DNA from: Auriscalpium vulgare
Lineage: Eukaryota > Basidiomycota > Agaricomycetes > Russulales > Auriscalpiaceae
NCBI GenBank assembly: GCA_019915015.1
Contig: JAHBBC010000004.1
Coordinates: 496,001-560,000, forward strand
Length of the DNA stretch: 64,000 nucleotides
Direction: 5' to 3'
Under the pieces are notes generated by a model. That model searched no databases. It was given only the letters and a program-made list of their open reading frames with translations, and was not told where the DNA came from. A program made the translations under genes and the position numbers. Below, in pieces: positions 1 to 62,489 of the stretch. Numbering within the stretch: position 1 is the first letter of the stretch; each line of letters starts with the position of its first letter.

Positions 1-1881
1 GGAGTTTTACCATTTTCTGAGGGAAATGTAAGCAAATACAGAGAGCAGGTGATTGTATTACTTACTAGATGCGTAAGCATACGCCGCAGGCCGGCCACTA
101 ACACGATCATATGTTGCATTTGGCTCGGACATGATGGCGAGTGTCTTGATCTTCGCGGATTTGTCATAACAATAAGGGATGAACACACGACACTGGTCAT
201 TGTAGGCCTTCCATACCGCCGCGGCCCTGCGGCGAGCAATAGCATATTCATGATCGGGATCTACAAAATGAGCCTTCGAACAAGACGATCCAAAAGTGAA
301 AGCTTACCGTTAAGAATTGGTGCTACCTGCCAAGGGTGCACGTCACGAAGCCCGTCACCTTGCTCAAAGCTGAACGCGGACAGGAATTTGTCCGGGTCGA
401 TATGTGCCTGGTGGAACATCCAATCAGCAAGTGCAACGCCAATAGGACCAGGCATCATCACCTTGACGTGTGGAGGCAGCTGGGCGAGAGCGTACACACT
501 CAATTGGTACGTAGAACGTGCCATGAAATTGACAAGCGCCTCGTCATCCATGATCACAGAACCGTCGGCCGCGAACGTCGCATGAGGCGACCATCCTTGC
601 TTGCTGCGGTCTTCCGGGCTGTCAAGCGAACGCACGTTAATGTAAGCGGCGATGGGAAAAAAAGCACAACGTACTTGTTCTTGACAGCTGGATCCAGGGT
701 GAGCATCCCATGAGCCTTCTGAGCTGCATTGTCGCCAGAACGAAGAGTCGCCAGTGCAGTTATGCCGTCTTCGAGAACGACACTTGGGGGATAGCATACA
801 ACAACAAGCCGATATGCCGAGCTGTCGACTTCCTGGCCGCGCGGTGCACGAGGTGGCGTCCCACCGTGGCGGCGAAGTCCATTGAAGTACAGGATGTTAA
901 GACCCTCTAGCCGAACGAACACGCCAAGCTCAATGAGGTGGAAGGTACCCGGATCGTAGCCAGGGGGGAGATCCGGCCACGATACCATGCCCGACAGTCC
1001 AGACACGTCGTCTCCTTTGTCGATATGCAGGAGCCCAAATTCTCCCAGCGAGGCCCATAGGTTTGTCGCCTCTGAGATTGGTGTCAGTAGATAGAGCATC
1101 CATTGTTGTAAGGGACGAACCAATCCAGCTGGCCAGTGCAGGCGAGATGTTCAGCTGAGTATTGCCAAAATATTTGTTGCTGTATACCCCGATAGCCGGA
1201 GCATTAACGAGTTCGGCCTGCATCTGCATGGCCTCACGATGGGCCCTTCCAAGGAAGGAGACGCCAGCACTCGCCGCAGCGACTGAGGTCTATGCAGAGC
1301 AAACGTTACTAGATGATGTGTTACGATTACTCTTAATCGTTTCTTTCTCCAACAGGTCAGGCCAAAATGCGAACACATTATAAGTCGCTTTAGGAAATAG
1401 ATCCCACGGTCAAGTCGCGTCGTCCCAACTGCCTTTTTCAGTAATTCTTAGCTAAGCAGGTCCTGCCCTAAGCGTTGCAGGCTCTTTGCACTTCAAATAA
1501 TACTAGTACTGCATGTAGTTTTGCTGTTGGCTCTAACTTCTTCAATCAGTCGAATGAAAGGAGCTTCCCGTGCTACAACTACTTTCAATCATTTCTTTCT
1601 CTAACCAGTCAGGTCAAAAAGTGCACATCAGGAAAGTCACAAAAGGAAATAGATAGTTGCGTTGTCCCACCTGTCTAACTCAATAATTCTTAGGTAAGTA
1701 GCTTCTGCCTAATGTCTTTCCACATCTTTGCGCTTCAAAAGACGCTCGTGTCTGTGAGTATTTTATGTTTTCCAAGCTAACTAGCGCAGATATGCATATA
1801 ATTCCAATTGTTCTATGATCAGAAAAAGAAGCTCCTGGATTTCTATTTTTGGTAAAAAGTTCCCACGGCTGGTGTAGAGAA

Positions 1882-1927
1882 GCATGACGTAGTTTTCGAG
1901 TGGTTGAGCCGGTTTACTACGTCATGC
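1882..1927. repeat. CATGACGTA hairpin module (element A)
   Basis: Perfect arms GCATGACGTAGT and ACTACGTCATGC enclose a CCGG-containing loop, followed by a second CCGG..CCGGG inverted pair. The same 46-nt span recurs in element C and in three isolated hairpins at 34.8, 36.7 and 38.0 kb. Confidence 0.8.
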
Positions 1928-1992
1928 CTCTCTAACCCGGCTACTACAATACCCGGGCTGAATATCTATATTATTAAAAATGTGCAAAGGGG

Positions 1993-2062
1993 GGGAATTG
2001 AACCTACAACCCATTGCTTACACAATACGATATAAGAGCATTAACCATTAGACTACAGTGCA
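1993..2062 (-). repeat. tRNA-like (SINE-type) module in element A
   Basis: On the minus strand an A-box-like TAGTCTAATGGTTAATGC and a B-box-like GGTTCAATTCC are spaced as in a tRNA gene. A strong acceptor stem is not obvious and the sequence runs into an AT-rich tail and the hairpin module. I read it as a tRNA-derived Pol III promoter module, not a functional tRNA gene. Sister copies are in B, C, D and both arms of E. Confidence 0.65.
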
Positions 2063-2410
2063 GTGGGTATAGTTAAGCTGTGTATAGTCTATACCAACAT
2101 TATCTTGACTCTTGCTCTACAATACATTTTGCTCTTCTCATCACTTTCTGTTCCTTTCCCCAATACAATATATACATATTATATATCTGTAGAATGGTAA
2201 AATTAATGTAAACACAATGGCCAGGATCCCAGAGTCTGGATCATTTGCAAAGTACGAGACATTTTTATATTGCTCACCTGTGTTCAGATCATTTGATTAT
2301 GTGAGCAATATGCAACTTGAGTGGTATGTTGATACACCTTGCTCCGCTGATATGCTTTGAACATAGTGATATGCCTCCTACGTGGGTGGCTACCATTTAC
2401 ACTATTCTGA

Positions 2411-3003
2411 TGCACGTACTACTTCAATTCCGTGAGGGACCCTCCGGGCCCACTCGGTGTACTCCGCGGGGACCCTGCGGAGTCCCGCACGCCATGCACC
2501 CCGCCGGCTCAGGTGCACCCAGCCATTGCTGGAGCGGCTGGAGCTCGCGCGCAGCGCACGAGATGTCGCGAGGTCCTCGCGGGAGCTGACAGGCCAAACA
2601 CCGTCCACGCTGCCGCCACCTGCGCCCCGCGGGGACCCTGCGCACCCGCAAGGACCCTGCGTGCCATGCGTTGAGCGAACAACGAGCCGGCGGAGTCCCT
2701 CGGGAGAGCAATGGTGAGTGCCGCTCGACTCCTGCGGCGCGGGGTTCTGTCGGTTGCGCAGGACCCCTGCGTGGGCGGACGGCGGCTGCATCGACGGTGC
2801 CGCTGAGCCCCCGCCACACACGGTCCTGGCGGCTCCCGCAAGGACCTCGCGGCGTCTCATGCGCTGCGCACGAGCTCCAGCCGCTCCAGCAATGACTGGG
2901 CGGGTCTGCGCCTGCGGGGTGCATGTGGGACTCCGCAGGGTCCCCGCGGAGTATACCGAGTGGGCCCGGAGGGTGCCCCACGGAACTGAAGTCTCTTGAT
3001 GCA
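2411..3003. repeat. GC-rich internal fold-back in element A
   Basis: Arms of roughly 170 bp (about 2411-2590 and 2830-3003) are imperfect inverted repeats. They contain matching CTCCGGGCCCACTCGGT and CTCCGCGGGGACCC stretches. Base composition jumps from AT-rich to strongly GC-rich at the borders. Long ORFs here exist on both strands and look like composition artefacts. Element C carries the same structure (about 52801-53342). Confidence 0.7.
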
Positions 3004-4776
3004 CTGCGGCGCTTATGCAGCAGCTCCTATCTTCACCAGGTATCCCCAATGCTATCACTTTCACTCACCCACTCACACGACAGCTAGCTCTGTAGCTGTT
3101 TGCACAGTAGCTCCATGCAGTTTGCCTGACGCTCGCTCACACTTGCACATTGTCAGATGACGTTTGCCACAGTCTTGCAATATTTGCCCAAGGTCGCACC
3201 AACTCGCTATATATTTAGACAAGCTGGCACACACTCGCAGTCAATACCACAGCTTTGCCCTAGCATCCCTATGCAGTTGCATCACCTGTCCGCACGCAGC
3301 CAGCCACATTACCGCATGGCTCACCCAACTCACCCAAGCATCTAGAGCAGTCCACCAAATGCAATGCATAGCCCTTGAATCTTAGCCCTCTATCACCGCA
3401 TCTGACTCAAGGATGCTATGCAGAAAATTGCAACACAATCATACAGCTGTCCTTGCAAGGACTACAAAGCATGGTGCACCCTCCTCAACTAGCATGTGGC
3501 CACGGGGAGGATTTGCCCCCTTGTTGAGTCCCTAGGTGTTGCCCGCCTTTATCATCCTGAAGGCAGACTTCACCACCCTCCCACAGGAGGTGAACAACTA
3601 CAGTGTGCTCAATGCCAAAACTGTCCCAGACTCTTACCCCTTTCGTGTATTGAGAATATCCTCACTGATTCCACAAAGGGGAAGAAGATCTGGGGTAAGA
3701 AGGACATAACAAACTTGTTCTTCCAGACAAGACACGTGTTAACCCAAACAACATCTACCTTATGGCTGACACAACACCTTTGTTGATAATCTGTAATTCA
3801 GTCTATCTTCAAATCAAGAAGATACCTGCCCTCCTCCCTCCCAACGATTAAGAGTAATTGTACTGCCATGCGTGCACTGGCCATTTCACACCAAGTCAAA
3901 GTGTGGTGTTACGCACCCTCTGTATCTCTTGTTGCATGGCAAGGCCCTCAGACATGGGAAGATCTGGCGAGCCCTTGTTGCCCGCGGACGGCGCCATCAG
4001 CTGCGTAGGTCGTTCGTAGCCGATGCCCAGGTTGTAGGCACGAGCACGCCGGACGGGATGGGCGTTGCCCGACCGCTCAAACGCAGTCCCACCCTCGAAG
4101 CGACCAGTGTCCGGGTTAAGGACAGGCCTGGATAGTGTGCGTTCAGCGTGAGGACCAAGAATTTGCTGCCTTGCTGCATTGAGTTCATCACACAAGATGT
4201 CGCCATCGGGCAAGGCCCGCAGGAGGTTTCTGCCATCGATTTAGCACTAGTAGATCAGACGCAGTGTATGCACGTACTCGCCAACCAGCATCGTTTGCTG
4301 GACGTCCTCGCAACCACAAGCGCACCCTGTCAATGCTCGAGCAAAGAACGCATCGCCTTCCTTCATCTTCACCAGTCCTAAGGAATGACCAGAATTAGAG
4401 GATGCATCTGTATGGATCGCAGGCAATACACACCGACACCTCCATCGTCCAACAAACTGTTCATCGCCTTCGGGATCTCCAGACGGCTTGTATACTCTCT
4501 GAACTCCTTCATCGCCTTCTCTGATGTGTCTTGGATATACACAAAGCAGCGGCCAAGGCTCTGTGTATCACGTAGGCCTGTCCTAGGGTCCTCACGGAAG
4601 GGATGTTGACCACAAACGAGATGCAACGCAGGGAGACGAGGGTCGCGGTTGTCGATAGGTAATTCATCCATGAGCAAAGGGACATGTGGTGGGGCAGGAT
4701 CAGGGCTCGAAGAGCCGTGAGCAGAGCCCATGGGACCAGACTGAGAGTGACCTGCAGATTGCATGGGGGAGGACAT

Positions 4777-9280: not shown

Positions 9281-10242
9281 TTACGATTACTCTTAATCGT
9301 TTCTTTCTTCAACCAAGTCAGGCCAAGACGTGAACACATTATAAGTCGCTTTAGGAAATAGATCCCACGGTCAAGTCGCGTCGTCCCAACTGCCTTTTTC
9401 AGTAATTCTTAGCTAAGCAGATCCTGCCGCACCTTGCAGGATCCTCACACTTCAACTATAGCACTAGCATGGTTCTCATGACGAGTACTCTTCATTATGA
9501 TTCCTCCTAATCATTTATTTCCTTCATCAGTCAGGCAAAATGCATGCATTAGAAAGATTGCTCTAGGAGATATGTCCCAAAGCTTGGACTAAAGTCAAGT
9601 CGTGTCATCCCACCTGCCTAATTCTGTAATTCTTAGCTAAGTAGCTACTGCCTGCCCTGTGATTTACACACCTTTGCACTGCAAAGACACTCGTGTCTGC
9701 GAGTATTTTGCATTTTCCAAGCTAATTAGCATTGATATACACATGATACCAATTGTTCTCAAGTCAGAAGAGAAGGCCTTCTAACTTCCCTTTTTGGTAA
9801 CATGTTCCCACGGGGTGACAATGGTGAGGTTGGCAATTGGGAGGGCTCTAGTTGCTAACTACCTTGCATTATATATACCAGAAGTGTTGAAAGGATGTTG
9901 ATCATGTGAATAGCCAATAATATAATTCCTCAACAAGCGTGGGAAAATGACGCAGTTGAATCAGGCAGACTGGGATTTTTGCCGGTCAATGAGTCATTGC
10001 TTACTAATCCCGGGGATAAAGTACCCGGTTACCCGGTAATTGAGCAATTTTTAGCTAAGTAGCTCCTGCCCAATGTTTTTCAACACCTTCTCACTTCCAA
10101 AGACACTCATGTCCGCAAGTATTTTGCGTTTTGCAAGCTAACCAGCAACAATATGAACATGTTTTCAATTGTTCTCGAGTCAGCAAAAAATACTGCACGA
10201 TTTCCATTTTAGGTAAAATTTTCCCACGGGTAGGCCAAACAC

Positions 10243-10302
10243 GCACCATGACGCATCAACCGGCACTTTCGACTGTGTGCAGGTTTAAACGCGTCATGGT
10301 GC
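10243..10302. repeat. CATGACGC hairpin module (element B)
   Basis: Perfect 12-bp arms GCACCATGACGC and GCGTCATGGTGC, followed by CCGGCTAC..TACCCGG. The same arms occur in element D at 48611-48622 / 48659-48670. Confidence 0.8.
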
Positions 10303-10366
10303 ACAAACCCGGCTACGACAATACCCGGGCTGAATAATTATATTATTAAAAAGTCGCACAGAGGGA

Positions 10367-10436
10367 GAATTGAACCTACAACCTCTTGGTTCTTTATATC
10401 AACCAATAGTATTGACCACTACACTACAAGGCCATT
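10367..10436 (-). repeat. tRNA-like module in element B
   Basis: Minus strand: TAGTGTAGTGGTCAATACT (A-box-like) and GGTTGTAGGTTCAATTC (B-box-like), then an AT-rich tail. It has the same layout as in elements A, C, D and E. A functional tRNA is unlikely. Confidence 0.6.
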
Positions 10437-11847
10437 CAGCTTTGTAGGATATGTACAGTACTTGTTGACCTTCTATCTTCTCCTGCCCTACAAGACAATT
10501 TGCTCTTTGCATCAATTTCTTTCCCCTTCTTTGGTACTTTGGGAAAAGATATATATATATAAAGCTACAATTATTGTGATTTGCAAAATGGATGAGATTC
10601 ACTGAAAAAAAGAGTTCAGAGGTCTTCGACCCGTGGGCTGCGGCGCCACCAGGTGCCGTGGCTTCGCTCTTGACTCCAACGCTTACACATCACCGCTGCT
10701 TCCCACAACATGTGACGTGTTGTCGCTGTCGTGCTGACGTGCCATGAGACATCGACAACATGTATCTCAGCTTCTACTGCACCTGTGGAGGTGGTTCTGG
10801 GCTCAATCGAGATAGTGATGTATACTATCATGACTGATTCACATATACATGCAATTCTATGGTGCTACTGTGGATAGAAATTACATACATGTGAAAATGA
10901 AATACAACTCTTTTGCCGTGAAATACAGCATCAGATAAACTCTTGGGCATCTTAGGAATACATGACATCCAAGCCCTTGATTGAGCCTGGAACCGCCTCC
11001 ATAGGCGTAGTGGAAGCCAAGATACACATTGTCGATGTCGTGTGGCACGTCAGCACAACGGTGACGGCACTGATACACATCGCTCCATGCTGCGAGGCGA
11101 TCATTACAGAATTTTCGCACTTTCATCAAGTCGACAGACACACAATTCTGAAGATCGCAGCATCGCACAGCAGTGCTCCGACCACCTGATTAGTTCTTCC
11201 AACCGCTCGCAAGATTGGAGTCTTGCAGAGCAGTCACGCAATCGGAATCATACCTTGAACACCACACTCGCGCCAGCGACGCTGTCGCACGCAGCACACA
11301 CAGTCATCCGACCACTTGCTCGTTGTTCCAACTGCCACCATGTGACCTTGAGCACAGCACCTCCCACAGCTGTCACAATGCGTCGGAATTCCATCAGACA
11401 TGTTTACTGTTGAGATTGGCATCAGAATGTATGCACGATGCCACTCCAGTCACTGTGACATCTGTATTCCTCTGCAGTCGCACTATTGTCCTCTGACCAT
11501 TGTTCACCTCAGTTCTTGTACTCACACTGCATCGTTCTGATCCCAATTGTTTTGTATTTTTATCAGCGTCCCGATTATTGCCTCAGGATTCTGACCACCA
11601 TTCCGGAGCATTCTTACCGGAAGAATAATCACAACGTCACAACATTGCAACACTCACCTCCGACCACCTAGTGCATCGGAGCATGCAGGATGTTGAGCTA
11701 CCACCCAGTGATAGAGACAATCCCCAAGCCTAGACTGTCAGCAATTTTGCTTGGGTATATTTAATGGCCAAGCCCCTCTCCCCCCTGCCCCCTAAATGAT
11801 TAAGAGTAATTGTACTGCCATGCTTGCACTGGCCATTTCCCACCAAG

Positions 11848-24895: not shown

Positions 24896-27800
24896 TTAGT
24901 ATATTGTGATGTAGGTATGTCTATCTACGAAGGATGAGACGTAGAATGTATCACAGTAATCAAGAACATTGGATGACGACCAGTGACGCGGCGCCGAGGG
25001 ACCAAACCGAGGGAATAGATGTACACTCCGTCGTATATCTCCCACCGGGATCACCGCCGATTTCCTCGCACCGCCCGTCGAGTACACGCGTTTTACACGG
25101 TAAAGGAGATGGTCCGGTTCTGCTGTGCGCGTGAAAGGAGTGAACCACTCTATGAACGCTAGATGTTTTGGACCGTCGTATTGCGGAGGGAAGACGGCAG
25201 CGTGAGCTTTGATTGGGAGACTGAAGATGGCGTGGACTTGTGCAACGCGATAGCCTGCTCGCAAAAGAACGTGTCAGTCGCTGAGTGTGTGCTTTCAAAG
25301 GGCGACATACCTTGAACACCCTGCCCTTCGTCGCCTGTGCCCGTGTCCACCAAAACTGTATCAAACCTGCCTGGCACGGCGCGGCCCCGGGTGCCCATGT
25401 ACGAAGGTCGAGCGTGTGCGGCATCGCGAGTCTCTGGTGCGCTGTCCACATCTTGAGGGTCGGGCAGCCAGAACTTGATGTTGTTGTAGGTTGCGACGGT
25501 GCGAAAGGGAAGCTTGAGACCCTTGGCAAGATTGGCGATCTGGACGCTGGAATGGCGAGGGTTCCGCGCTGCCAGGATATAGCAGGCAAGCGCGTGCTCA
25601 AAGCCTTCGGCGCCGTGACGGTACTCGAGCTGCGCGAAGGTGACGGACTTGTCAGAGGGATTCCGAGCGATGTGAATACGTGGCCTGAGAGCGACAGGGG
25701 CCGGAGGAGCAGCCAGCAGGCCCGGCGTGTTGTTGAGCCGCCATTCGACGAATTTTGAATGCCGAAGGACCTGCTCGCGGCGCACGAGCCACTTGGTCAT
25801 CTGCGGATAGACGTCCTTGTGGTTTGTCGATCGGTAAGCGTCCTTCGCGTAGTCGATATGGAGTCGTTCGGTGGCCTCGGTGTTGGTATTGTCCGTTGTT
25901 CTAATAAGCTTGATGGAGTCGACATAGTGCGCGAGTGCGTGGAGCTTGGGGAGGTTGAAGCCTTCTCGTATGCCGAGAGCCTCGAAGATATGTTTGCTGG
26001 CATGGAAGCGCTTCAGAGCCTTCTCGAGGTACTTTAGAGTAGCGTCGCTGTGCGATGGATATTGCGCGAGATAGAGGAAATCGAGGAGAGCGCGGGCCGT
26101 GCGGATGACGTCGGTGACGGGCGTTCGGGCGGGAAGATCCAGGTCGATGATAAGGCCGAGTAGAATGCGACAGATATCCTTATGTTCTTGCCCGGATACG
26201 CGCGACAAGATAGAGATTCCGTTCTTGAAGAGGCGGACATTGTGATTGGGAGGGAGTCGTGCACAGCGCGCATCAATCTCGGCAGCTCCAAAGGCATCAG
26301 TAAGCCAGCCCAGGAGGTGTTTCACCATGCCCTGATAGAGTTGATGGAGGACGTCGGGCGTGATCGCAACAAAGACATTGGAGTAGGGAAGATCTGCCCA
26401 GAACGGATGATACACCGGTTTGATCCCAGCTTCTTGGCAGGCCGCGATGTATGCCTCTGGCCCGCGGTCAATAACGGATAGCGCCTCGCGCGCTGCAGCT
26501 ATGCTCCGAGGGGATGGCAGAGAGGGTGTATGGTCCCCTAGCGCATCAGGATAAACGACGCACTTGGGGCACTCGCCGGACTTGACGCATGCGACGAGCA
26601 CCTGTTCAGGGTAATCTCCGATGAAAACGGCAAAGATCGGATGACAGCGCCGAACGACGCCGTCTCCGCTCGCCATTTCAACGCCGTGCAGACCAGGTGA
26701 GATGGTGGGCGACACGATCTTTCGAACGCACGCATGGAAGAGGTTGGCAACAGCGCGGCGGCGCGTGTCCTGATTTTTGATGCTCGTCAGACGGGCGGTC
26801 GGAAGGTAGCCAATCAAGATCTGAGCCTGCTTTGACGGCTTCCTACGATTCTCCTTCGAGATGTTGCCTATGGTAAGGTACAACGGGTACGCGGAGTTGT
26901 TCCGAAAGTTGGTGACGAGGGTCTTGTCAGAGGACAAGATAAGGGGGACAACGGTTGCGCCTGGCGTCTTGTCTTCGAGCAAGGTCTGTGCGCGGAGCAT
27001 GAGCTACACGTTGCTATCAATTGCTGTGCCACGCACCTGTATGTGCCACCACCACTTCCCAGTATTCATTTGGCCGTACACGCGAGTCCTCGGCCGCGCA
27101 GCCTCATCCGCGGGCTCAGCAGCGTCGTCGGCATAGTGACATTCGGGGGTGAAGGCCATGGTCTGTAGGAACTCGGGGTTGCTATAGAGGTGGCGGACGC
27201 ATTGCATGATGTCGCGGTAGAACAGCTCGTATGTCTCGCCGTCGACAGTGATCTCGTCGCACTTGAACGCGGGGATGCTAGGCATGCTTGAATCGATGAT
27301 GGCATTCAGCGCCTTCGAGGAATTGAATGACAGGTTGAGTCGCTCGCGAACCTAGAGCGGGAATGTAAGCGCTGCTCTGCATGCACGTGGGGCGCTCAGT
27401 AAAACGTACTTCGTCGATCTGAAGGAGCTCCGTGAAGGCTGTGGACGTGGGGCCTCGCATCTTCGCCCAGCGCGCGATCTCCCACTCCAGTTTGGAGTGG
27501 AATGGTGCCCAGACGTTCGCTGCGGGATTGTCGCCGGCGTCGAGGGTGTCGCGGTATGCCTCGAACGTTGAGCGCGTGTCGACCTGTGGGATAGTCTCGC
27601 CTGCTCGGCCTCCAAAGTGAACCACCGTGGACGGCTCATGGAGGGCCTCCTCGTCGTCTCGCCGCTGCTCGTCCTCCATGCGACGGGCCTCTTCTTCGCC
27701 GACTGCAGGAAACTCGTAGGCGTCGTCCATTGGAGCGTCTGGGCGCAACTGGTCCGCGCGCGGCCGATCCTCATGCATGGCAGCAATGTCGTGCTCTTCA

Positions 27801-38056: not shown

Positions 38057-38323
38057 CTCTCCGGCTGGAAATGTGCCCGACGCCGGCGGCTGGACCACAT
38101 GAATACGTAAGCATGAGCTCTAGCTAGCATTGTACAGAGCACGTACGCTGGCCATGAGAACCTTCTCGTGCATTGAGACATGGCCAATCCTAGGGCAACG
38201 AAGTGCTCCGGCATTTGGAACGGAGGAGGAGGTGGTGCGTGTGCAGGAACATGACATGGGCACTGATCGCTAACACGCAGACCGCAAGCATCGTTGGCGG
38301 TTTTTCAGATTAAATTGAGCACA

Positions 38324-38937
38324 TGTAAGTAATGACAAGCGAAGCAGCGGGCAGCACGCCGTACTGCCTAGCAGGTCAGACTCACAGGGGTTGCAGTGGT
38401 GCCCCACGGAGATCCCGAAGGATTGGGAACACGGTCGCAACCCCAATCCCAAGCATGTCGAGGAGTATATAACCAATCCTAAGTAAGTAATGACACGCGA
38501 AGCAGCGGGCAGCACGCCGTACTGCCTGGCAGGTCACACTCACAGGGGTTGCAGTGGTGCCCCACGGAGATCCCGAAGGATTGGGAACACGGTCGCAACC
38601 CCCAATCGCAAGCATGTCGAGGAGTATATAACCAATCCTAAGTAAGTAATGACACGCGAAGCAGCGGGCAGCACGCCGTACTGCCTGGCAGGTCACACTC
38701 ACAGGGGTTGCAGTGGTGCCCCACGGAGATCCCGAAGGATTGGGAACACGGTCGCAACCCCCAATCGCAAGCATGTCGAGGAGTATATAACCAATCCTAA
38801 GTAAGTAATGACACGCGAAGCAGCGGGCAGCACGCCGTACTGCCTGGCAGGTCACACTCACAGGGGTTGCAGTGGTGCCCCACGGAGATCCCGAAGGATT
38901 GGGAACACGGTCGCAACCCCCAATCGCAAGCATGTCA
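38324..38937. repeat. Minisatellite, 159-bp unit, about 3.9 copies
   Basis: The motif AGCACGCC recurs at 38353, 38511, 38670 and 38829 (spacing 158, 159, 159). Because 159 is divisible by three, a minus-strand frame reads through as repeated 53-residue blocks; this is probably not a gene. Copies are nearly identical, so expansion is recent. Confidence 0.9.
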
Positions 38938-39164
38938 AGTACTGGGATAACATTGTCAAAGCCACAACAAATATTGCGTGGGCAGCATGCCGTCCGCAAC
39001 ATCCGAAGGGTCGACCACAGACCAGAGTCAAGGGGACAAGGCCGGTGTGCTGACGTGGAGGCACCGCCTCCAGGCAAACTTAATGTAAGCGCAAGTGCAA
39101 ATAAATGAAAACATATCTGCTCACCAGTGTACAGGGAGCGGGTGCTGGGGTGGGCTGACGTTGT

Positions 39165-40399: not shown

Positions 40400-42000
40400 A
40401 ATTTCTTTGCGCCCACTGGTCCGCGCGCTGCGCAAGACCCAACGAAGCGTGCCCACCGTCTGGTCACTCTGGTCCGTCGTCCTACGCGTCTCATCGCCCA
40501 CGCTCGCTTACCCAACGTCCCTCTCACCTCGCATGACCCCGTCTCTATCACTTATCCCCAATTCCCGCTCGCCCACCGTTCAGCGCATCACGCACGTCCC
40601 AAAGACGCTCGCCCACCGTCCATCCGCGCTCGTACGTTGTCCTACACGCCTCATTGCCCACGCTCGCTTACCCACCGTCCCCCTCCTCTCGCACGACTCC
40701 GCTTCGATCATCCATCCCAACTTCTCGCTCGTCCACCGCGCCGCGCGCCGCGCACGACCCAACGATGCTCGCCCACCGTCCATCCGCGCTCGTACGTCGT
40801 CCTACACGCCTCATTGCCCACGTTCGCTTACCCAACGCCCCCGTCCTCTTGCACGACTCCGTCTCGATGATCCATCGCAATTTTTCGCTCGTCCACCGCG
40901 CCGCGCGCCGCGCACGACCCAACGATGCTCGCCCACCATCCATTTGCCCTCGTACGTCGTCCTACACATCTCATCGCCCACGCTCGCTTACCCAACGCCC
41001 CCGTCCTCTTGCACGACTCCGTCTCGATGATCCATCGCAATTTCTTGCTCGTCCCCCGCGCGCCGCGCCGCGCACGACCAACCCAATGACGCTTGCCCAC
41101 CGTCTGTTTGCGGTCGCAAGCCGGTCTGCGCGTTGTGTATCGCCCGCGCTCACTCGCCCGCCGTTTCCTGCGCGCCGCATCGAGCGCATTTGCTCATACA
41201 ACATCCCTGTCTCCCCGCACGCCCCCGTGTCGTTCGCGCCCCATCTGATCGCTCTTGTACGTCGTTCTACGCGCCCCATCGCGCACAATCGCTTACCCAA
41301 TGTCCCCCTCCCCTTGCACGAACCCGTCTCAATCACCGACCGTCAATTTGGGTGTGCCCACCGTCCCGCGCGGCGTGCACGCTCCCGCTTCATTCCCACG
41401 CCGTCCAAATGCTGTCCCCTGCCATCCCGCACGCTGGGCGCGCGCGTTTGTGTACCGCCCGTTCATGCTTGCATGCACCCTCCATGTCGAGCAACGCCCG
41501 TGCTCGCTACCACGTCCTCTCCTGCCCGCAACATCGCCCGCGCTCGCTCACCCAACGTCCCGTGCGCTACCCACGCCTCCGTGTCAGCCGCCCACCGTCC
41601 AAACCCGCTTGCCTGCCATGCCACGCGCTGCACGCAACCACACCTCACTCACGCACCACCTATTGTTGCTTGCCCGCCGTCCTGCTCGCCGCACCGCACG
41701 CGCTCGCTCACACACAAACCCACGTGCCACCCACGACCCCGCCTGACTCGCACACCGTCCATTCTGAGGCGCCCATTGTCCTGCGGACAGGCCATTGTCG
41801 CTCGCCCAAGGTCCTGCGAGTCAAGCACGCCTCTCTTTTGCTGGCCTACTATCCCGCGCGCTGCGCACAACCCGCCTAACTCATCCCCCATCCATTTTCG
41901 CTCGCCCGCCGTCCTGCCCGCCGCACCGTCCACGCTCGCTCACACAACATCGAGCGTCGCTCACCCACCGCCTCGCTGGCTCGCTCAGCGGCTACCGTGC
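40400..42000. repeat. GC-rich minisatellite, 160-bp unit
   Basis: The block CCGCGCGCCGCGCACGACCC recurs at 40741 and 40901, with weaker copies about 160 bp before and after (near 40421, 40581, 41061). Each unit carries GCTCGCCCACCGTCC and CTCGCTTACCCAACG. Similarity decays towards 42000. The long plus-strand frames here are repeat-driven and change frame each unit. Confidence 0.8.
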
Positions 42001-42882: not shown

Positions 42883-45454
42883 ATGGCCCCACCACCTTTC
42901 ATCGACATGTTCTCATGGCTGTCTAACAGCCACATCATGATCTCTTGCAATGCGCAATGTATCCCTGCCCCTCTACCGTCATCTTTCAGCTTCGAGGTTC
43001 CGCCGCAAATTCAAGAGGATGGCTTATGGGGCGAGTGTGAGTGGACCACATTCCCGCAACCCTTCAATCCATCTGCTCCATATCTTGCATACATTCCTAT
43101 TGCCTCCAGCACCTTTGCTATTCATCTTTGCTCTGTGCGCAAGGAAATGTGGGCGCCACACCCTGACAGCAGCGGAATGCATGTTCTGGCAAAAGAAATA
43201 GCTAAGACCCTGCACTCGGCGATGGAGTGGGCCACTTTGGTCACACAAAAAGACTTTCCTGCCTTCCATCAACACGCAAAGTCATCACCTCTGCTACAAA
43301 ATGTTGTTCTTCCCGAAGAAGCTTTGCGCAGGCTGCGCGTGTGTTTCTACACATTACAACAGGATGGGGTTCGAGCGTGGCGCGATTTTGTCGACTACTT
43401 TAGAAATGCCCAGCGCGCATTACTAGAATTTATCGCATTCACTGCATGGTGGCAAGATCTCAAGGGCTTTCGACAACATACAAACTACCAAGCCCCTTCT
43501 CGAGCGCCAACCCGTGGCTCATTGTTTCCCAATCAAGATCTCTACGAATACTTTGCGCGCATGAAAGTGGCGTCATACTTGCTGGGAGTGGGCCGACGCG
43601 TAGCGCGGCAGTACGATTCCGCTCTGAGGGGGTTTCTGGTTACATAATCAAATATATACATAAATAATAGTCTTGAGACACTATGTACTAGACACCAAAA
43701 CGCGACTGGGAGTGGCCCTGGTACCAAATTTAAGTCATGGTGGGCAATACTGTTCACTGGAGGGCATTAAAATTTACATAAGTTGGGTGTGCAGCTGCAC
43801 CTGAGGTGGTGGTTGTGAAATCAAGAGTGATGACATCATTTCGGGCTCTAATTGTAATTTAAAACCCCGGAGTGACATCATCGTATTTCTGCCTGTGTTG
43901 TCTGGTGCATCTCAGTTGTTGCAACATCACTGTTCTGCAACTTCTGTATATGTTGCATGGCCTAGTAATCAGTGTATTTAGGCAATCATTTGTGTATATT
44001 GTGTGGAGCAAATGAGGAGGGGTAAAGTCGTGAGTTGACATAGCGTGGGAGCGAATTTCCAAAAAAGGCGACACAGATGATCGTTGCATGGGGTCGAAAA
44101 AACGCTGTATATGGATGACATAAGCAACGATTCGTAGGAATCGTAATCCTATCATTCCAGCCAACCTCTTGCCCAATATCAATTCAGTCCCCTGTGTGCC
44201 CTTCACGGCGCGCTCAAACCTGTGCATGACGAATAATCCGCGGCCCATGGGTGCCAAGCAGGAGCACAGCATAGAGCTTTGGTGCTATCCCCCAGCCGTT
44301 CTCGATAGCTCATGGTTTGAGAGCGCTGCGCGTGGGATGTCCAGCCGTGATGATGAGTTCAATCCCACTCACGAATACGCTGCAGCCCTGCAGAAAAAGC
44401 AGAACAAAAAAAATGCCCCTCGAAGTACGTCCTGCATGCTTTGAGCCTTAATAGATAACTAACTGGCCTATCAGAATTCAATTTCTTGTTCCATGAACTT
44501 CAAGACTATCGACGCGCTTACAGCACTCCCCCACCTCCTCCAAACATCTTCCCACCACACCTTCCCTTCTATGAACAAGCCCTGAATCATGTCAACCCAA
44601 TGAAGGCAAAAGTTACAACTGAGTCTCGGCGTTTTGCATTTCCTCCACTATATCATTTCTGGAGCGGCACTCCTGAACGACAAACAGCATTCTATAAACG
44701 GATCGACTCTCTCTCCAGCTTCTTGGTTATCCGGGACAGTCATGACCTGGACTTCCATCAATACACTGCTGCGGAGTGGAAGGAAATTCTCGGTGATGTG
44801 TACTGGAAAAAGCAGTGGCCTACCAAGGATCCCTACAAGTTCAACCCTGCTGTGGATGAGGCGTATGACCCTGCTGTCTTCTGGAAGTATGGTGGGAAGC
44901 AGTTCTTTGGGAAGTACGAGAAGGACGCGATTGAAGGCAAGCTGAAGCTCGGCCCTTCAAAACACAGCTGTGGATGCTTGCCAGACAACAGTGTATGGGA
45001 TGACCCAGCCTTCTGACGGTTGATGTTGTACAATATCAAACGCCACCAACTGCGGGATGACCTCTATTACATGCTGCGGGCAACCACTGAACTGAGAGGC
45101 TATAAGGAGGAAAGGGAGGGGCTCTTTATTGCTTTTTGGAAGAAGGTTCCTTCTTTTCCGGGTCCTTGTGAATTTTGGGAGGCACGCCGGGATTGGCTTC
45201 AGAGCCTGCAAGACATGCTGCCTGAGTTTATAGGCTATGAGCAGTATACTTCGCGATTTCCTATTGACCTTCGATCTGCAAAAATTCCTTCTTTGGATCA
45301 TCAAGGCTTTCTGAATGTAGAGTTACAGCTTTTGACTTGTTATGTAGAGTTATTCTTGATTCATTTTGGTTGGCATCCCAGTGCGCTTCTTGTTGAGCCT
45401 CACTCTACACAGTATTGGCTTATGCCTTGCTCGCAACACTGGGGAGTAGTTTAG
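42883..45454 (+). pseudogene. Gene of unknown function (about 650 aa), split by element F1
   Basis: ATG 42883. Coding segments are 42883-43577, then 44147-44424 after element F1, then 44475-45454 after a 50-nt GT..AG intron (44425-44474). Removing F1 and the intron leaves 1953 nt in one frame, apart from TGA 45014-45016, which would read Arg if CGA. Visible features: an N-terminal region with MFSWLSNSHIMISCNAQ, a central RNLCMTNNP-like segment, and an aromatic-rich C terminus (WEARRDWLQSLQDMLPEF, HFGWHPSALLVEPHS). No known domain is recognised. It ends three bases before the CACTA-like element, so its natural 3' end may be lost. Confidence 0.65.
43578..44146 (-). mobile_element. Element F1: short HINE-like element inside a gene
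   Basis: Minus-oriented: 5' end TTACGATTCCTACGAATCG at 44146, 3' end CCCAGCAAG at 43578, host T (A on plus) at 43577. Near the 3' end, GGAATCGTACTGCC matches the corresponding tail of elements A-D. Exact removal restores the host frame without duplicated bases. It carries a paired TGACATCA module (43829-43882). Relatives are at 60824-61386 and 62230. Confidence 0.85.
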
Positions 45455-48335
45455 TGCACTATGTCCCTACAGTTGTAACAAGTGGGTGGTGTCATAGGCA
45501 GATAGGATAGTGAAGTGCAAGTATAGGGCAGTATAGTGCACTCTAGTGCATATAACAGTACTATAGTGTCCTTGGATGCACTATAGTAGTAGCATGACTG
45601 TAAGGACCATTGTATTTTTGCACCAATATAATGGGCTTTGAAAATGTTATAAATAATGGTGTAGATGCACAGGTGAAACTGCTATATAGAGGTAATTTAG
45701 CCGAATATATCTGGCTAACGGTAGAGAGCTGTAGGGCAATCACTGGCCAATGGATCCCATGGATTTATGTACTATAGTGAATCAATAATATATTACAGAA
45801 ATGCTGGGATATATGCACCTTCTCTCCTTTCAAATGAGCTCTATAAATTCGGATAATCTTACAGCATGTGGCTTAGTAGAGTGCATATGTGACCTGAATT
45901 TACCAGAATACAGGGGGTCATTTCTGAGGAGTTATGCAGTGCACACTGTATCAGATATTCATCTACTATAGTGATATTATACTCTTTAAAGCTTTCTTAA
46001 TTTGTTATGGGATGACTGGACATTCATAAATCATGAAGAAAAAGGTGAGCATATGTACCACGCATGCCACTGCTGTCTGAATTTATCATAATATTTAAGA
46101 CTAATGGCAAGCCGCACCAATGCATATATACTTATACACTATAGTGTTATTTAGCTTGCTTCTATCCTCAAACTTTTTCAGCACTGAATAGCTCCTCAAT
46201 ACTTGGGGAAACAAATCCCTAGATATTCCAGAGCACTATTACACCACTTGGTGGGAAATGGCCAGTGCAAGCATGGCAGTACAATTACTCTTAATCATTT
46301 AGGAGGCAGGGGGGAGAGGGGCTTGGCCATTAAATATACCCAAGCAAAATTGCTGACAGTTTAGGCTTGGGGATTGTCTCTATCATTGGGTGGTAGGTGT
46401 GGGGTGCAATGCAAGATGGGGTATCATGTCACAGCATAAGTGCGATCGAGGGTGCAACCGCGACAGGACAAATGGAAGCGAGGCTGGGATCTCTCATGTC
46501 CCAAGACGGTAGGAGCAACAATGAGTCGTGCAGGCAATGATGCAGAACCGTGTGGATGGTCAGAGGAGCGGGGGCGATGGGCGGAAGATAGGGATGAGTG
46601 GTGCAAGTACACCGATTCATGTTGCGATCGCTGCGGGACGAGCGGAACACAATTGTGATCTCCGATGTTGCAAGACACTCGGAGCGATGAAGTGCGAGGG
46701 CAACAGCGGATGCAATGATGATGGAATAAGATGAGAGGGAGGAGAACAATGAGCTGAGTGCGCGAGACGACGACGAAGACAAAGGCAAAGGCAAAGGTGA
46801 CAGAGCTTGCCTCGAGCTAACTATACAATAGAGACAGAGATGCTGTGCTCCGAATGAGATCTGAACCATGGGGGGGAACCGAATCTGTATTGCAGTATGG
46901 ATGCGACCGCTATTTATATGTTTCGACCGCTGCAGTACAAGTCCGATCAAGAATGAAGTCGGAATAAAGGAAAATGGTCGGAACAAAAGCAAACAATGGT
47001 GCGCAAGTTGCACATGGTACAGACAATGGAGGAGAGTCAAGAGGCTGTATAGAACAATGTAGAGCAAGTGATCAGCGCTTATCAGGAGGACAGTGCAAGC
47101 ACATGGAAAACAATCTGCGCTATCAAGGAGTGCGGGAGAGACATCCTACAGAGTCGAACAAGACATTACGACTAGAAAAGGAGACAATGGAGGTGTGGCT
47201 GGCGAGTGGTAGAATACACTCCGACGTGTGAGGGGGCTGCAGGTAAGTGTTGCGATTTTGCGACTCGTCAAACGGTCGGAAGAATGCTCTGGTATTGCGT
47301 GTGCAATGGTCAGAGCAGTGGAGGGATAATCGGAGTGCTGGTCCAACCGCAGAACGATCGGGATCGAATATATGTAGTGCAAACTTGAGCACTGAGCTGG
47401 ACAATGGTTGGCGGACAATGGCGCAACTGTGGGGGTACTCGGAAGTCGCAGAGACGTCGCAGATACGTGGCGCACGTGCTGAAACAACGATCCCAAGAAT
47501 CAAAATGTCTGATGGAATTCCGGTGCGTTATGACAGCTGTGGGAGATGCTGTGCTTGAGGTCGTGTGGCGGCAGTTGGAACAACGAGCAAGTGGTTGGAT
47601 GACTGCGTGTGCTGTGTGCAACGGTATTGCTGGCGCGAGTGTGGTGTCCAAGGTATGATTCCGATTGCGTGACTGCTCTGCAAGAGTCCAATCTTGCGAG
47701 CGGTCAGAATAACTAATTGGGTGGTCGGAGCACTGCTGTGCGATGCTGCAATCTTCGGAATTGTGTGTCTGTCGACTTGATGAAAGTGTGAAAATTCTGT
47801 AATGATTGCTTCGCAGCATGGAGCAAGGTGTATCAGCGTCGTCACCGTTGTGCTGACGCGCCACACGACATCGACAATGTGTGTCTTGGCTTCCACTACG
47901 CCTATGGAGGCGGTTCCGGGCTCAATCGAGGGCTTGGATGTCATGTATTTCTATGATGCCCAAGAGTTTTATCTGATGCTGTATTTCATGGCAAAAGAGT
48001 TGTATTTCATTTTCACATGTATGTAATTTCTATCCACAGTAGCACCATAGAATTGCATGTATATGTGAATCAGTCATGATAGGATATCTCGATTGAGCCC
48101 ATAACCGCCTCCACAGGCGCAGTAGAAGCTGAGATACACGTTGTCGATGTCGCGTGGCGCGTCAGCACGACAGCGACGACGCGCCACATGTTGTGGGAAG
48201 CAGCGGCAATGTGTAAGCGTTGGAGTCAAGAGCGAAGCCACGGCACCTGGTGGCGCCGCAGCCCACAGGTCGAGGACCTCTGAACTCTTTCTTTTCCAGT
48301 GATTCTCCTCCATTTTGCAAATCACAATAATTGTA

Positions 48336-48337
<2 letters not shown>

Positions 48338-48366
<29 letters not shown>
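48338..48366. repeat. (AT)n microsatellite in element D
   Basis: About 14 TA units. Element B has a shorter version near 10547-10561, so the tract varies in length between copies. Confidence 0.9.
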
Positions 48367-48369
<3 letters not shown>

Positions 48370-48476
48370 CCCAAAGTACCAAAGAAGGGGAAAGAAATTG
48401 ATGCAAAGAGCAAACTGTCTTGTAGGGCAGGAGAAGATAGAAGGTCAACAACTACTGCACATATCCTGTAAAGCTA

Positions 48477-48546
48477 AATGGCCTTGTAGTGTAGTGGTGA
48501 ATACTATTGGTTGATATAAAAAGCCAAGAGGTTGTAGGTTCAATTC
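48477..48546 (+). repeat. tRNA-like module in element D
   Basis: Plus strand: TAGTGTAGTGGTGAATACT (A-box-like), then GGTTGTAGGTTCAATTCCCC (B-box-like), then a T-run. It has the same layout as the other copies. Confidence 0.6.
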
Positions 48547-48610
48547 CCCCTCTGTGCGACTTTTTATTAATATAAATATTCAGCCCGGGTATTGTAGTAG
48601 CCGGGTTTGT

Positions 48611-48670
48611 GCACCATGACGCGTTTAAATATGCACACAGTCGAAAGTGCCGGTTGATGCGTCATGGTGC
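48611..48670. repeat. CATGACGC hairpin module (element D)
   Basis: Perfect 12-bp arms GCACCATGACGC and GCGTCATGGTGC, reverse orientation of the element B copy. Confidence 0.8.
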
Positions 48671-51027
48671 GTGTTTGGCTACCCGTGGGAAAGTTTTACC
48701 TAAAATGGAAACTGTGCAGTATTGTTTGCTGACTCGAGAACAATTGAAATCATGTTCATATTGTTGCTGGTTAGCTTGCAAAACGCAAAATACTTGCAGA
48801 CATGAGTGTCTTTGGAAGTGAGAAGGTGTTGAAAAGCATTGGGCAGGAGCTACTTAGCTAAAAATTGCTCAATTGCCGGGTAACCGGGTACTTTATCCCC
48901 GGGATTAGTAAGCAATGACTCATTGACCGGCAAAAATCCCAGTCTGCCTGATTCAACTGCGTCATTTTCCCACGCTTGTTGAGGAATTATATCATTGGCT
49001 ATTCACATGATCAACATCCTCTCAACACTTCTGGTATATATAATGCATGGTAGTTAGCAACTAGAGCCCTCCCAATTGCCAACCTCACCATTGTCACCCC
49101 GTGGGAACATGTTACCAAAAAGGGAAGTTAGAAGGCCTTCTCTTCTGACCTGAGAACAATTGGTATCATGTGTATATCAATGCTAATTAGCTTAGAAAAT
49201 GCAAAATACTCGCAGACACGAGTGTCTTTTGCAGTGCAAAGGTATGTAAATCACAGGGCAGGCAGGAGCTACTTAGGTAAGAATTACAGAATTAGGCAGA
49301 TGGGATGACACGACTTGACTTTAGTCCAAGCTTTGGGACATATCTCCTATAGCATTCTTTCTAATGCATGCATTTCGCCTGACTGATGGAGAAAATAAAT
49401 GATTAGGAGGAATCATAATTAAGAGTACTAGTAATGAGAACCATGCTAGTGCTATAGTTGAAGTGTGAGGATCCTGCAAGGTGCGGCAGGACCTGCTTAG
49501 CTAAGAATTACTGAAAAAGGCAGCTGGGACGACGCGACTTGACCGTGGGATCTATTTCCTAAAGCGACTTATAATGTGTTCACGTTTTGGCCTGACTTGG
49601 TTGAAGAAAGAAACGATTAAGAGTAATCGTAATGCCCCTTCCATCCCTGAAAGTTTTGTGTCCTTGCATGCAATTGGTATATAGTACCATACTTCTGATC
49701 CTTTGATACAGCCTAAATGATCCATATGTCCCTGTCCCATCTATCCAAGCATATGTGTGAACTGAAATGATTATTTATCTTTCAATGAGCCATGATCCAT
49801 GAAGCTTACTTGAGCACAAGCTCATCCTCTGTAAAAGAAATAGCCATTTATATTCATATGCCTGATCATAAACTGGATCACCCTGGGACAAGGATACCTC
49901 AGACATTACAGGCTGTATGAGAGTGTAAGTACAGCACTTTCTGCCAACTCTAGATAGAATTCCCATATTTTGAGCATTGGGTGGGGCATGGTCTGTGAAT
50001 GCTCTATAAATCTCTGGATTATATTGACCAAGTACTGGAGAGCTATTGGACACATCATATGCTTTTGTGGCCAACCAATTAGATCACCACTATAGTGCAC
50101 AAATCTATATGCCTTGGTGTGGCTCACCAATGGCTTCAGATATTATGATAAATTCTGACAGCAGTGGCATGTGTAGTACATATGCTCACCTTTTTTGTCA
50201 TGATTTATGAATGCCCAGTCATCCCATAACAGATTAAGAAAGCTTTAAAGAGTATAACATCAGTATAGTAGATAAATATCTGATACAGTGTGGACTGCAC
50301 AACTCCTCAGAACTGACCCCCTATATTCTTGTAAATTCAGATCACATATGCACTCTACTAAGCCACATGCTGTAAGATTATCCGAATTTATAGAGCTCAT
50401 TTGAAAGGAGAGAAGGTGCATATATCCCAGCATTTCTGTAACATATTATTGATTCACTATAGTACATAAATCCATGGGATCCATTGGCCAGTGATTGCCC
50501 TACAGCTCTCTACCATTAGCCAGATATATTCGGCTAAATGACCTCTATATAGCAGTTTCACCTGTGCATCTACACCATTATTTATAACATTTTCAAAGCC
50601 CATTATATTGGTGCAAAAATACAATGGTCCTTACAGTCATGCTACTACTATAGTGCATCCAAGGACACTATAGTACTGGTATATGCACTAGAGTGCACTA
50701 TACTGCCCTATACTTGCACTTCACTATCCTATCTGCCTATGACACCACCCACTTGTTACAACTGTAGGGACATAGTGAATAAACTAAGCCCCACAGCCCT
50801 TGCTCGCGGCATGGCATCACATCTCATTCTGATTCTCCAATGTCTTCACTTACGTCTCTTACCTCAGACTAGTAGTCATGTGTTTGCTCCCATTTTTTTA
50901 TGCGTCTATCAATCAAACTTTGTGCCGGGTTCAAAGGTTCTGCCACACTATGTCTCACTGCCATCAGTCAATACAGGTCTTCCATCATCTTCCACGCCCC
51001 AATTCTGCCCGCACAGGCATCCATTAT

Positions 51028-53846: not shown

Positions 53847-54017
53847 ATATGCAAGAGAGACCTAGGAATCAAAGCTGACAGAGATATACCATATTAGGCA
53901 GGAGTCACGACGTGACTTGACCGTGGGAGCCAACTTCCTAGAGCGACTCATAAAAATGTGCGACGAAAAGCCTGACCTGTGGATTAAATAAACGATTATA
54001 GTAATCGTAAAGTAGTA
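53847..54017 (-). mobile_element. Orphan 5' end of another family member
   Basis: On the minus strand TTACGATTACTATAATCGTTT starts near 54013 and is followed by the family's CAGGTCAGGC, GAGTCGCT.TAGGAA and CCCACGGTCAAGTC blocks. No matching 3' end is found, so it is a truncated copy, possibly cut by the events around element C. Confidence 0.6.
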
Positions 54018-57229: not shown

Positions 57230-57293
57230 AGGAATTGAACTGCAAGCCTCCAAGTTTTGAAGACTGTAAGATACCACTAGACTACAGAGCCTT
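57230..57293 (-). repeat. tRNA-like module, left arm of E
   Basis: Minus strand: TAGTCTAGTGGTATCTTAC (A-box-like), then GCAGTTCAATTCC (B-box-like), more tRNA-like than the A-D copies. The mirror copy is at 60029-60092. Confidence 0.65.
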
Positions 57294-60028: not shown

Positions 60029-60092
60029 AAGGCTCTGTAGTCTAGTGGTATCTTACAGTCTTCAAAACTTGGAGGCTTGCAGTTCAATTCCT
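60029..60092 (+). repeat. tRNA-like module, right arm of E
   Basis: Mirror of 57230-57293. Contains TAGTCTAGTGGTATCTTAC and GCAGTTCAATTCC, followed by a T/A-rich tail. Confidence 0.65.
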
Positions 60093-60493
60093 GTTATAAA
60101 AAGTTTTGAACAGATTGGTAATCAAGTCCGGGTAGTACAGTAGCCGGAGTAGAGAGAAATGAGGTAGTTTCCGAGTGCACATGTGCTGTGCATCCGAGAC
60201 TGACGTCATGGCATTGAGCGTGGGAATTATTTACCAGAAATAGCAATTATAGAGCATTTTCATCGGACTTAGGAGCAACTGTAATTATATGCATATCTAT
60301 CCTAGTCAGCCTACAAAATGCAAAATACTGACAGAATTGAGAGTCTTTTGAAGAGGGAAGAGGTAGAAATGGGTTTACAAATGAAAATGAATCGTGAGAA
60401 CATATTTGCATTTGGGGGGACAAGATGAAGGTCACAGGGGGGTCAAAAACCGCAACTGGTGCTTACATAAGAAACAATTCAAGGGAATCGTAA

Positions 60494-60780
60494 CTCACAT
60501 CCACTTGCACTTTCACCTTCCTCTCATTTGCCCGGAATGATTCGCATACATTGCTTCATTTGCAGTATATTTCAGACCATAGAGCACCTACAGAAGCCGC
60601 AAAACAGTGATATATTGCAGGGCTTGAACAGCGGTAGCAGAAAGACGATGACATCACTCCGGGTTTTAAACACAATTTACGACCCCGGAATGACATCATC
60701 GCTGACATTATCACACATGATCATGTTGATATTATGTTGTTTACTCAAAACGTGCCCCAGCCTAATGCGGGGAGAGGGTA
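60494..60780 (+). mobile_element. Element G1, truncated, abutting E
   Basis: Matches the inverse of 62490-62745 almost base for base but lacks the first ~130 bp, because E begins directly at that point. It carries a TGACATCA/CCGG module (60648-60700). Confidence 0.7.
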
Positions 60781-60823: not shown

Positions 60824-61386
60824 CTTGCTGGGAGTGGGCCGACGTGGAGCGCGGCAGCATGATTCCGCTCAAAGTGGTTTCTGGTTACATAATCAAATAT
60901 ATACATCAAATAATAGTCTTGAGACACAATTGGATACTAAACCACAACTGGGTGGCCCTAGGGGTACCAAACAATGGTGGGCAATAATGTGCACCATTGG
61001 GCGACACCGGAGGGCATGAAATTGGGCGTGCAGTTGCAGCCTGAGGTGGTCATTGTGGGATCAAGGGCGATGACATCATTCCGGGTTCTAAACGTAATTC
61101 AAACCCCCGGATTGATGTCATCGTATTTCTGCCTGTGTTGTCTGGTGCTGCTTAGTTCTGCCAACATTACTGTTCTGCAACTTCTGTATGTGTTGCATGG
61201 TCTAATAAATGGCGTATGTAGGCAATCATTTGTGTATGTTGTGTGGAGCGAAAGTGAGGAGGGGTAAAGCGTGAGTAGACATAGCGTGGGAGTGAATTCC
61301 AAAAAAGGCGACACAGACTGTCGTTGCATGGGTCGAAAAAAATGCTGTATGTAGATGACATAAGCAATGATTCGTAGGAATCGTAA
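60824..61386 (-). mobile_element. Element F2, relative of F1
   Basis: 5' end TTACGATTCCTACGAATC at 61386; 3' end CCCAGCAAG at 60824. Module GATGACATCA..TGATGTCATC at 61069-61122. Flanking host DNA (60765-60823) is shared with 62180-62229. The base after CAAG is C here, the only exception to T. Confidence 0.8.
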
Positions 61387-62229: not shown

Positions 62230-62285
62230 CTTGCTGGGAGTGGGCCGACGTGGAGCGCGGCAGTACGATTCCAAGCTCAATACAG
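62230..62285 (-). mobile_element. Element F3, 3' terminal fragment
   Basis: CTTGCTGGGAGTGGGCCGACG.. as in F1 and F2, then diverges after GATTCC. It is preceded by the same host block as F2, with host T. Confidence 0.65.
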
Positions 62286-62489
62286 GGCTGGATGGATGAT
62301 CCTGTAACTCTGTACAATTGCAAGTACATGAAATAATGATGAAGACTACTTAATTGTTGCTATAACACTATCCCTGAAACACTTCGGTAATATGCATGCT
62401 CTCTCAAGCCACCGGTACTAAGCACCAAATGGGGTTGTCACTGCTGGCCAGCCTTGAGCCAGCATCAGAGCAAGGTTACGACCCCTGGG

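Follow-up and report, generated by a model that had tools for sequence, protein, structure and literature searches.

Seven repeats that encode no protein, yet begin with the same palindrome and finish with the same few letters, lie within a 64,000-nucleotide stretch of the genome of the fungus Auriscalpium vulgare (the window; C4:496001-560000, where C4 denotes a contig of the 51.6 Mb assembly, in 96 contigs). To which class of transposon do these copies, named A-D and F1-F3, belong, and which enzyme moves them? The evidence set out below makes it very probable that they are non-autonomous rolling-circle transposons with the anatomy of Helitron2 elements, moved in trans by the Rep-helicase (RepHel) protein of very large elements that carry the same ends.

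Matching ends and undisturbed target sites

The window contains 11 copies of the 5' palindrome TTACGATT, where 1.07 would be expected, and none of 100 shuffles had as many. Both ends are present in seven copies, namely A-D (2.1-3.4 kb) and three short ones (563-638 bp), which we take to be F1, F2 and F3 of an earlier sequence-only reading of this DNA because one of them, at 61386-60824, is the copy with C next. The copies, with the terminal features of A, are as follows.

1321-3895, plus: copy A, complete non-autonomous element, 2575 bp, both ends; 5' flank GATGTG, 3' flank TCAAAG
1323-1340, plus: 5' inverted repeat and hairpin of A, 2 bp off the 5' terminus (sequence; fold z -5.2)
3844-3861, plus: 3' inverted repeat of A, 34 bp before the 3' terminus (DNA search and sequence)
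3865-3881, plus: short 3' palindrome GCCA..TGGC of A (sequence; fold not above shuffles)
9281-11847, plus: copy B, 2567 bp, within a Gypsy-type long terminal repeat element (both ends; unoccupied copies on C2 and C8; Pfam for the host)
46247-49632, minus: copy C, 3386 bp (both ends)
51705-53833, plus: copy D, 2129 bp (both ends)
43578-44146, minus: F1, short relative, 569 bp, hairpin of the C:G type, then T (both ends)
60824-61386, minus: F2, short relative, 563 bp, then C (both ends)
62230-62867, minus: F3, short relative, 638 bp, then T (both ends)

A pairs closely with D, and B with C; between the pairs about 176 bp of the 5' end is common at 90-92%, and weaker inner stretches are also shared.

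In A-D the 5' end reads TT followed by ACGATTA-CTCT-TAATCGT, which folds into a 7-bp hairpin (-4.6 kcal/mol, z -5.2; A, B and D, which have identical letters, were folded). The inverted copy of this hairpin stops 34 bp short of the 3' end CAAG; the sequence-only reading had placed it about 30 bp inside that end, so that its presence stands and its distance is corrected. The same reading had given the extent of A exactly, and the terminus CA(C/G)CAAG that it described closes all seven window copies, the variants outside the window being CCCCAAG, CCCCCAAG and CAGAAAG. The common palindromic start that it saw extends well beyond this locus: the genome holds 346 such 5' palindromes (171 + 175), against 4 for a reversed-pattern control, and 111 A-type 3' ends (57 + 54), against 0 for the control.

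The two ends also match each other base for base. At its seventh stem pair, the 5' hairpin has A:T in A-D and C:G in the short type, and the 3' repeat has the matching base, T or G respectively, in all 11 elements with both ends in the sequence compared (a count that leaves out one row, in which an outer 5' end was joined with an inner element's 3' end). Among the 100 genome hits listed, of 346, the hairpin pair is complementary in 98. Similar compensatory changes between ends have been reported for Helitron2 (PMC3627910).

Target sites were scanned in the window and at 50 of 80 loci (L001-L030 and L061-L080, with L031-L060 omitted). The base after CAAG, or after a near variant, was T at 20 of 21 distinct 3' ends and C at the remaining one, in agreement with the T that had been noted after the window copies and the C after F2. 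At 40 distinct 5' ends, the base before TTACGATT was G in 16, T in 12, A in 12 and C in none; F2 and F3, whose palindrome reads AATCAT and is missed by the 5' pattern, have A and G as 5' neighbours. Given the window composition, the probability of at least 20 T in 21 is about 2e-12 and that of no C in 40 about 5e-6, values that serve as guides only, because duplicated DNA contributes copies that are not independent, and the 5' end served as bait in fetching 30 of the loci.

The sequence-only reading had further noted no target duplication, and none is present at four insertions with a matching empty site; with the element start set at TACGATT, a 1-bp duplication of T is indistinguishable from none. 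For copy B, a Gypsy copy on C2 aligns at position 1701943 to both window 9281 and window 11848, with one T, and a more distant Gypsy copy on C8 gives the same pattern at 171433. An A-like copy at C24:668746-671316 is absent at the matching place in L067 (...AATGT^TAAC), and the empty site of a RepHel element on C10 reads CACCCAAA^TCAGTTCC. For a nested 1435-bp copy at C4:32674-34108, the joined flanks match two sites in the window over 120 columns without a gap.

60623-60742, plus: unoccupied form of the C4:32674-34108 site, 94% identity
62508-62627, minus: second unoccupied form of the same site, 93% identity

Checks of empty sites and termini revealed neither a consistent duplication nor a DDE transposase with these ends.

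The RepHel partner and a proposed mechanism

The autonomous partner that had been expected elsewhere in the genome is a Rep-helicase element with the same termini. Helitron_like_N domains occur at 50 genome places, in open frames that reach 2523 aa, and the 30 Rep domains that were fetched sort into several families. One of these, family iii, has the 3' end ...ACGATTAAGAGTAATCGT(A/G)CTGCCATGC.TGCA.TGGCC...CCAAG, followed by T, in all three copies compared (L066, L068 and L026), the same as in A-D. In L026, a family-iii 3' end on the minus strand splits an element whose intact form is L025, and the half of L025 that is lacking there, used as a query, located the other flank of the insertion at C10:1138622. 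This position predicted a minus-strand junction of GCACCCAAA with TTACGATTN6AATCGT. With one mismatch permitted, the predicted junction had a single hit in the genome, at C10:1138603-1138631 on the minus strand with 0 mismatches, and the control had none. The RepHel copy delimited in this way (C10:1138622-1110648, minus) is 27,975 bp long and has both termini; 22.2 kb separate its 5' end from the Rep domain. A subtype of the 5' end (...CTCCAACGA) has five exact genome copies, and all five lie upstream of a family-iii RepHel and its 3' end, on the same strand.

Other pairings were rejected. The RepHel at C24:663933 had been paired with a 5' end at C24:671316, which proved to be that of the 2571-bp A-like copy inserted upstream; the unoccupied site of this copy is in L067. 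Families a and v yielded no TTACGATT...CAAG pair attributable to them. Families ii and iv (2482 and 2323 aa; L061-L064 and L069-L072) were rejected on their 3' end, CTAG followed by T, and their 5' termini were not found; the end in full is GG(A/G)(A/T)CGT..GCCATGCTCTGCAATGGC...CTAG, in which a CTAG like that of Helitron1 follows a related 3' palindrome. Separately, L031 (C18:949340) holds a RepHel of the canonical Helitron1 kind, which closely resembles Helraiser (E 5.8e-205).

Pfam places DUF6570, Helitron_like_N and PIF1 in the family ii protein (2482 aa, scanned whole). The scan of family iii covered the N- and C-terminal pieces, on either side of a 2.2 kb middle that contains the helicase stretch; the N-terminal piece has DUF6570 and Helitron_like_N, and the C-terminal piece matched no Pfam family. 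Neither an endonuclease nor an OTU domain was found at E<0.05 in family ii as a whole or in these two pieces of family iii. The string LTLHLHMLL in family iii is presumably the HUH motif. A phmmer search of family iii against solved structures gave nothing useful, and a comparison with Helraiser gave no match at E up to 1.

Within their final 260-285 residues, families ii, iii and iv have SCAYDS, two CxxC, HFTAR and WxHDG in common, in four of four sequences. In ubiquitin-specific proteases (USPs), the order is Cys box, zinc-binding cysteines and His box. A model of the RepHel C-terminus was poor (pLDDT 52.7), and all 42 of its Foldseek matches at E<=0.001 were USP-type deubiquitinases or the SAGA deubiquitinase module, with TM-scores of just 0.24-0.36 and root-mean-square deviations of 11-18 A. 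A model of this quality backs the motif reading and is insufficient alone; together, motifs and model suggest a weak resemblance of the RepHel C-terminus to USPs. Helitrons with OTU and herpesvirus-like VTD deubiquitinases are known (PMC9741609), and among the titles and abstract openings listed in literature searches (12 of 506 in one of them) there was no USP-bearing Helitron, which does not prove that none exists.

We propose that the HUH/tyrosine Rep domain would nick the 5' end beside the hairpin, after which the helicase would peel away one strand. The 3' inverted repeat would then pair with the 5' repeat, opening the 5' hairpin and marking the stopping point, and the CAAG end would be joined ahead of a T, perhaps by way of a circle, with the target neither lost nor duplicated. 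Short copies would undergo these steps in trans, and the USP-like C-terminal domain perhaps protects the transposase, or else a helper, against ubiquitin-dependent turnover.

Known relatives and the size of the coding copies

The family has the terminal anatomy of Helitron2; it is real, explained in kind, and new as a variant of such elements. Helitron2 also has a hairpin-forming 5' repeat 0-2 bp from the end, a sub-terminal 3' copy of it, T at the 5' end, mostly no duplication and compensatory changes between its ends (PMC3627910). Here the 5' repeat, its hairpin and the T are all present, a RepHel-coding partner exists (Helitron_like_N in family iii, together with PIF1 in family ii) and, the 1-bp T aside, duplication is lacking at the four insertions. 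Features that set the family apart from the published Helitron2 are the target (N^T, with N not C, as against TTTT^T/C), the CAAG 3' end, the 3' repeat at 34 bp, the USP-like RepHel C-terminus and the very large RepHel copies (PMC3627910). None of the marks of Helitron1 (5' TC, 3' CTRR and an A^T target) is present, the ends being TTACG...CAAG and the target N^T.

Among fungal elements, FoHeli of Fusarium oxysporum likewise has asymmetric terminal repeats, hairpins and repeated 5' ends, but FoHeli1/2 start with TCAG and end with ATTTT, FoHeli3-5 start with TGCCT and end with CTCCTGT, and their size is about 5-11 kb (PMC5148889). HELPO1 and HELPO2 of Pleurotus ostreatus likewise have a RepHel and coding and non-coding copies of varied length; they differ in their T[C/G]...CTRR (or CTTG) ends, A^T target and RepHel of about 1400 aa, and the largest copy named in the source is 13.3 kb (PMC4289320).

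The sequence-only reading had called the copies HINE-like, after the non-autonomous partners of Helentrons. What stands is that they are non-autonomous rolling-circle elements with asymmetric terminal inverted repeats; the name in its strict sense does not. Helentrons and HINEs have palindromic sub-terminal repeats too (2-4 nt from the 5' end and 38-60 bp from the 3' end), likewise lack a duplication, and have more short copies than coding ones (PMC4067079), so the palindromic repeats 2 bp from the 5' end, the palindrome near the 3' end and the missing duplication would all suit them. They differ, however, in a T-rich target and a variable number of T at their ends (PMC4067079), and Helentrons, with which HINEs are partnered, carry an AP endonuclease at the C-terminus and favour TT (PMC4067079, PMC5148889). 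No AP endonuclease was found in the RepHel parts scanned, the C-terminus included; the 5' neighbour is T in just 12 of 40 ends, which does not fit insertion in TT as a rule, and no variable T runs were noted. That A-D and F1-F3 are the partners of a RepHel-endonuclease element inserting in TT is accordingly improbable. Still less credible, to the point of being almost dismissible, is a cut-and-paste DNA transposon of the miniature inverted-repeat kind with degenerate terminal repeats: inverted repeats near either end and a high copy number would fit it, but the 3'-side repeats are not terminal, the four insertions lack a duplication and the same ends belong to RepHel elements. The Helitron2-type reading, for its part, has several points to contend with. 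The 3' repeat, at 34 bp, lies slightly farther in than that of Helitron2 (20-30 bp); GCCA..TGGC makes a short 3' hairpin, and in folding, the 3' regions of copies A, B and D do no better than shuffles (z 0.2 to 0.5); and the matched base change between the ends is, for the most part, essentially one switch between two lineages. In addition, PIF1 was seen in families ii, a and v only, the helicase stretch of family iii lying outside the scan.

How large the RepHel-bearing elements are is a separate matter. Measured from end to end, the five subtype copies span the following lengths; the interior of about 20 kb lies outside the sequence comparison and may contain unseen insertions, a further point against reading the spans at face value.

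C23:385908-416941, plus: 31,034 bp
C10, 5' end at 1108908, minus: 30,375 bp
C10:1109323-1169104, plus: 59,782 bp, or 31,807 bp minus a nested 27,975-bp element
C23, minus: 35,945 bp
C2: 73,761 bp, paired via the c10-type letters of its 3' end

From the start of the Rep domain to the 3' end, the distance is 5.8 kb in C23 plus, C10 minus and C10 plus, 7.2 kb in C23 minus and 30 kb in C2, which indicates that the C2 copy is interrupted. On C10, the 5' ends of two large RepHel elements stand head to head, 414 bp apart (1108908, minus, and 1109323, plus), and a third large RepHel element is nested in one of them. A review puts the usual length of fungal Helitrons at 6-7 kb, with enlargement to 14 kb, whereas those of maize reach 39 kb (PMC6431247), so that size alone has a precedent outside fungi; the titles and abstract openings listed in literature searches disclosed no fungal Helitron near 30 kb, and absence is not proven by that.

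On one explanation, which is quite possible though we would not presume it, the large spans arise by chance or are composite: short copies would lie upstream of RepHel by luck, or a RepHel element of about 8-12 kb would have been swollen by nested insertions, the short copies still being driven by RepHel. The uncompared interior leaves room for this, as do the 5' parts, which differ among the five (the common sequence departs after 452 bp in C10 minus and after about 210 bp in C23 minus), the 73.8 kb C2 copy with its 3' end 30 kb past the Rep domain rather than 5.8 kb, the C10-minus interior, part of which resembles multi-copy DNA elsewhere, and two more RepHels of this type (on C9 and C4) that lack the subtype 5' end. 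Such an origin is harder to square with five subtype ends of five in the correct place and strand, with concordant net sizes of 30.4, 31.0 and 31.8 kb, and with the 27,975-bp copy, which is delimited by an empty site. At least 1.8 kb of 5' interior (1,333 bp + 486 bp at 99-100%) is common to C23 plus and C10 plus, which have different flanks, and 3.6 kb upstream of Rep is common to all five subtype copies at 98-100%. A diverged relative on C24 also retains the 5' interior at 73% over 1,051 bp, at the same distance; its span of 31.8 kb is an estimate, its 5' terminus, predicted near position 601,385, being unseen. Our tentative proposal, to be taken seriously rather than assumed, is a giant fungal lineage of the Helitron2 type. 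Its coding units would have stayed at about 31 kb while diverging by 16% in RepHel and by 27% (DNA) in the 5' interior, and would hold some 20 kb besides a RepHel that ends in a USP-type deubiquitinase rather than an OTU or AP endonuclease domain; short hitch-hikers by the hundreds would depend on them through a code of hairpin and inverted repeat in which partner and passenger match.

Other features of the window and wider significance

Copy C is flanked by 690-bp inverted arms, 95% complementary, at 45457-46146 and 50088-50777, and may be nested in another inverted-repeat element. The host of copy B is a chromodomain Gypsy element by Pfam; such elements, like Plavaka transposons, are typical of mushroom-forming fungi. 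A diverged A-type 5' end (TTACGATTACTATAATCG) lies on the minus strand at 53900-54010, just past copy D. A 3.7-kb palindrome has the TTACGATT end at both outer tips and no 3' end seen within; it reflects either a recent inverted duplication or faulty assembly. Stretches resembling the A-box and B-box of tRNA genes (GTAGTCTARTGG ... GTTCAATTCC, with 44-51 bp between) occur in A, D, C and both palindrome arms and are possibly an internal RNA polymerase III promoter. ARAGORN, run on the window and on 14 of the loci, reported zero tRNAs, and Rfam had no match at gathering level, the tRNA-like stretches included (one match at E 0.061, far below the cut-off, was discounted). Elsewhere in the genome, five loci (L014, L018, L010, L022 and L029) have two tandem 5' ends per copy, resembling FoHeli copies with repeated 5' ends (PMC5148889).

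56829-60493, no strand: long palindrome, arms of 1781 nt, 99% complementary, 103 nt spacer
1990-2065, 52375-52450 and 57230-57290, minus: tRNA-like box stretches
48475-48550 and 60030-60095, plus: tRNA-like box stretches
C9:1418065/1419008, C9:1481346/1482289 and C19:178741/179178: examples of tandem 5' ends
25159-27000: Plavaka transposase fragment (E 1.3e-83)
40410-41189: direct tandem array, units of about 160 bp
38283-38939: direct tandem array, 159 bp units

Abundant fungal repeats without a protein of their own are here tied to an enzyme by their ends, by empty sites and by a junction that was predicted and then found. The Helitron2 mechanism has so far been mostly inferred, and the presence in one genome of two matched end types (A:T with T, and C:G with G) allows a direct test of the proposed stop signal, the opening of the 5' hairpin by the 3' repeat. 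The size of the RepHel copies and the USP-like domain are the points that a specialist would want checked. If the 31 kb unit is true, rolling-circle transposons in fungi would shift far more DNA than the 14 kb given in a review (PMC6431247), and could carry whole genes.

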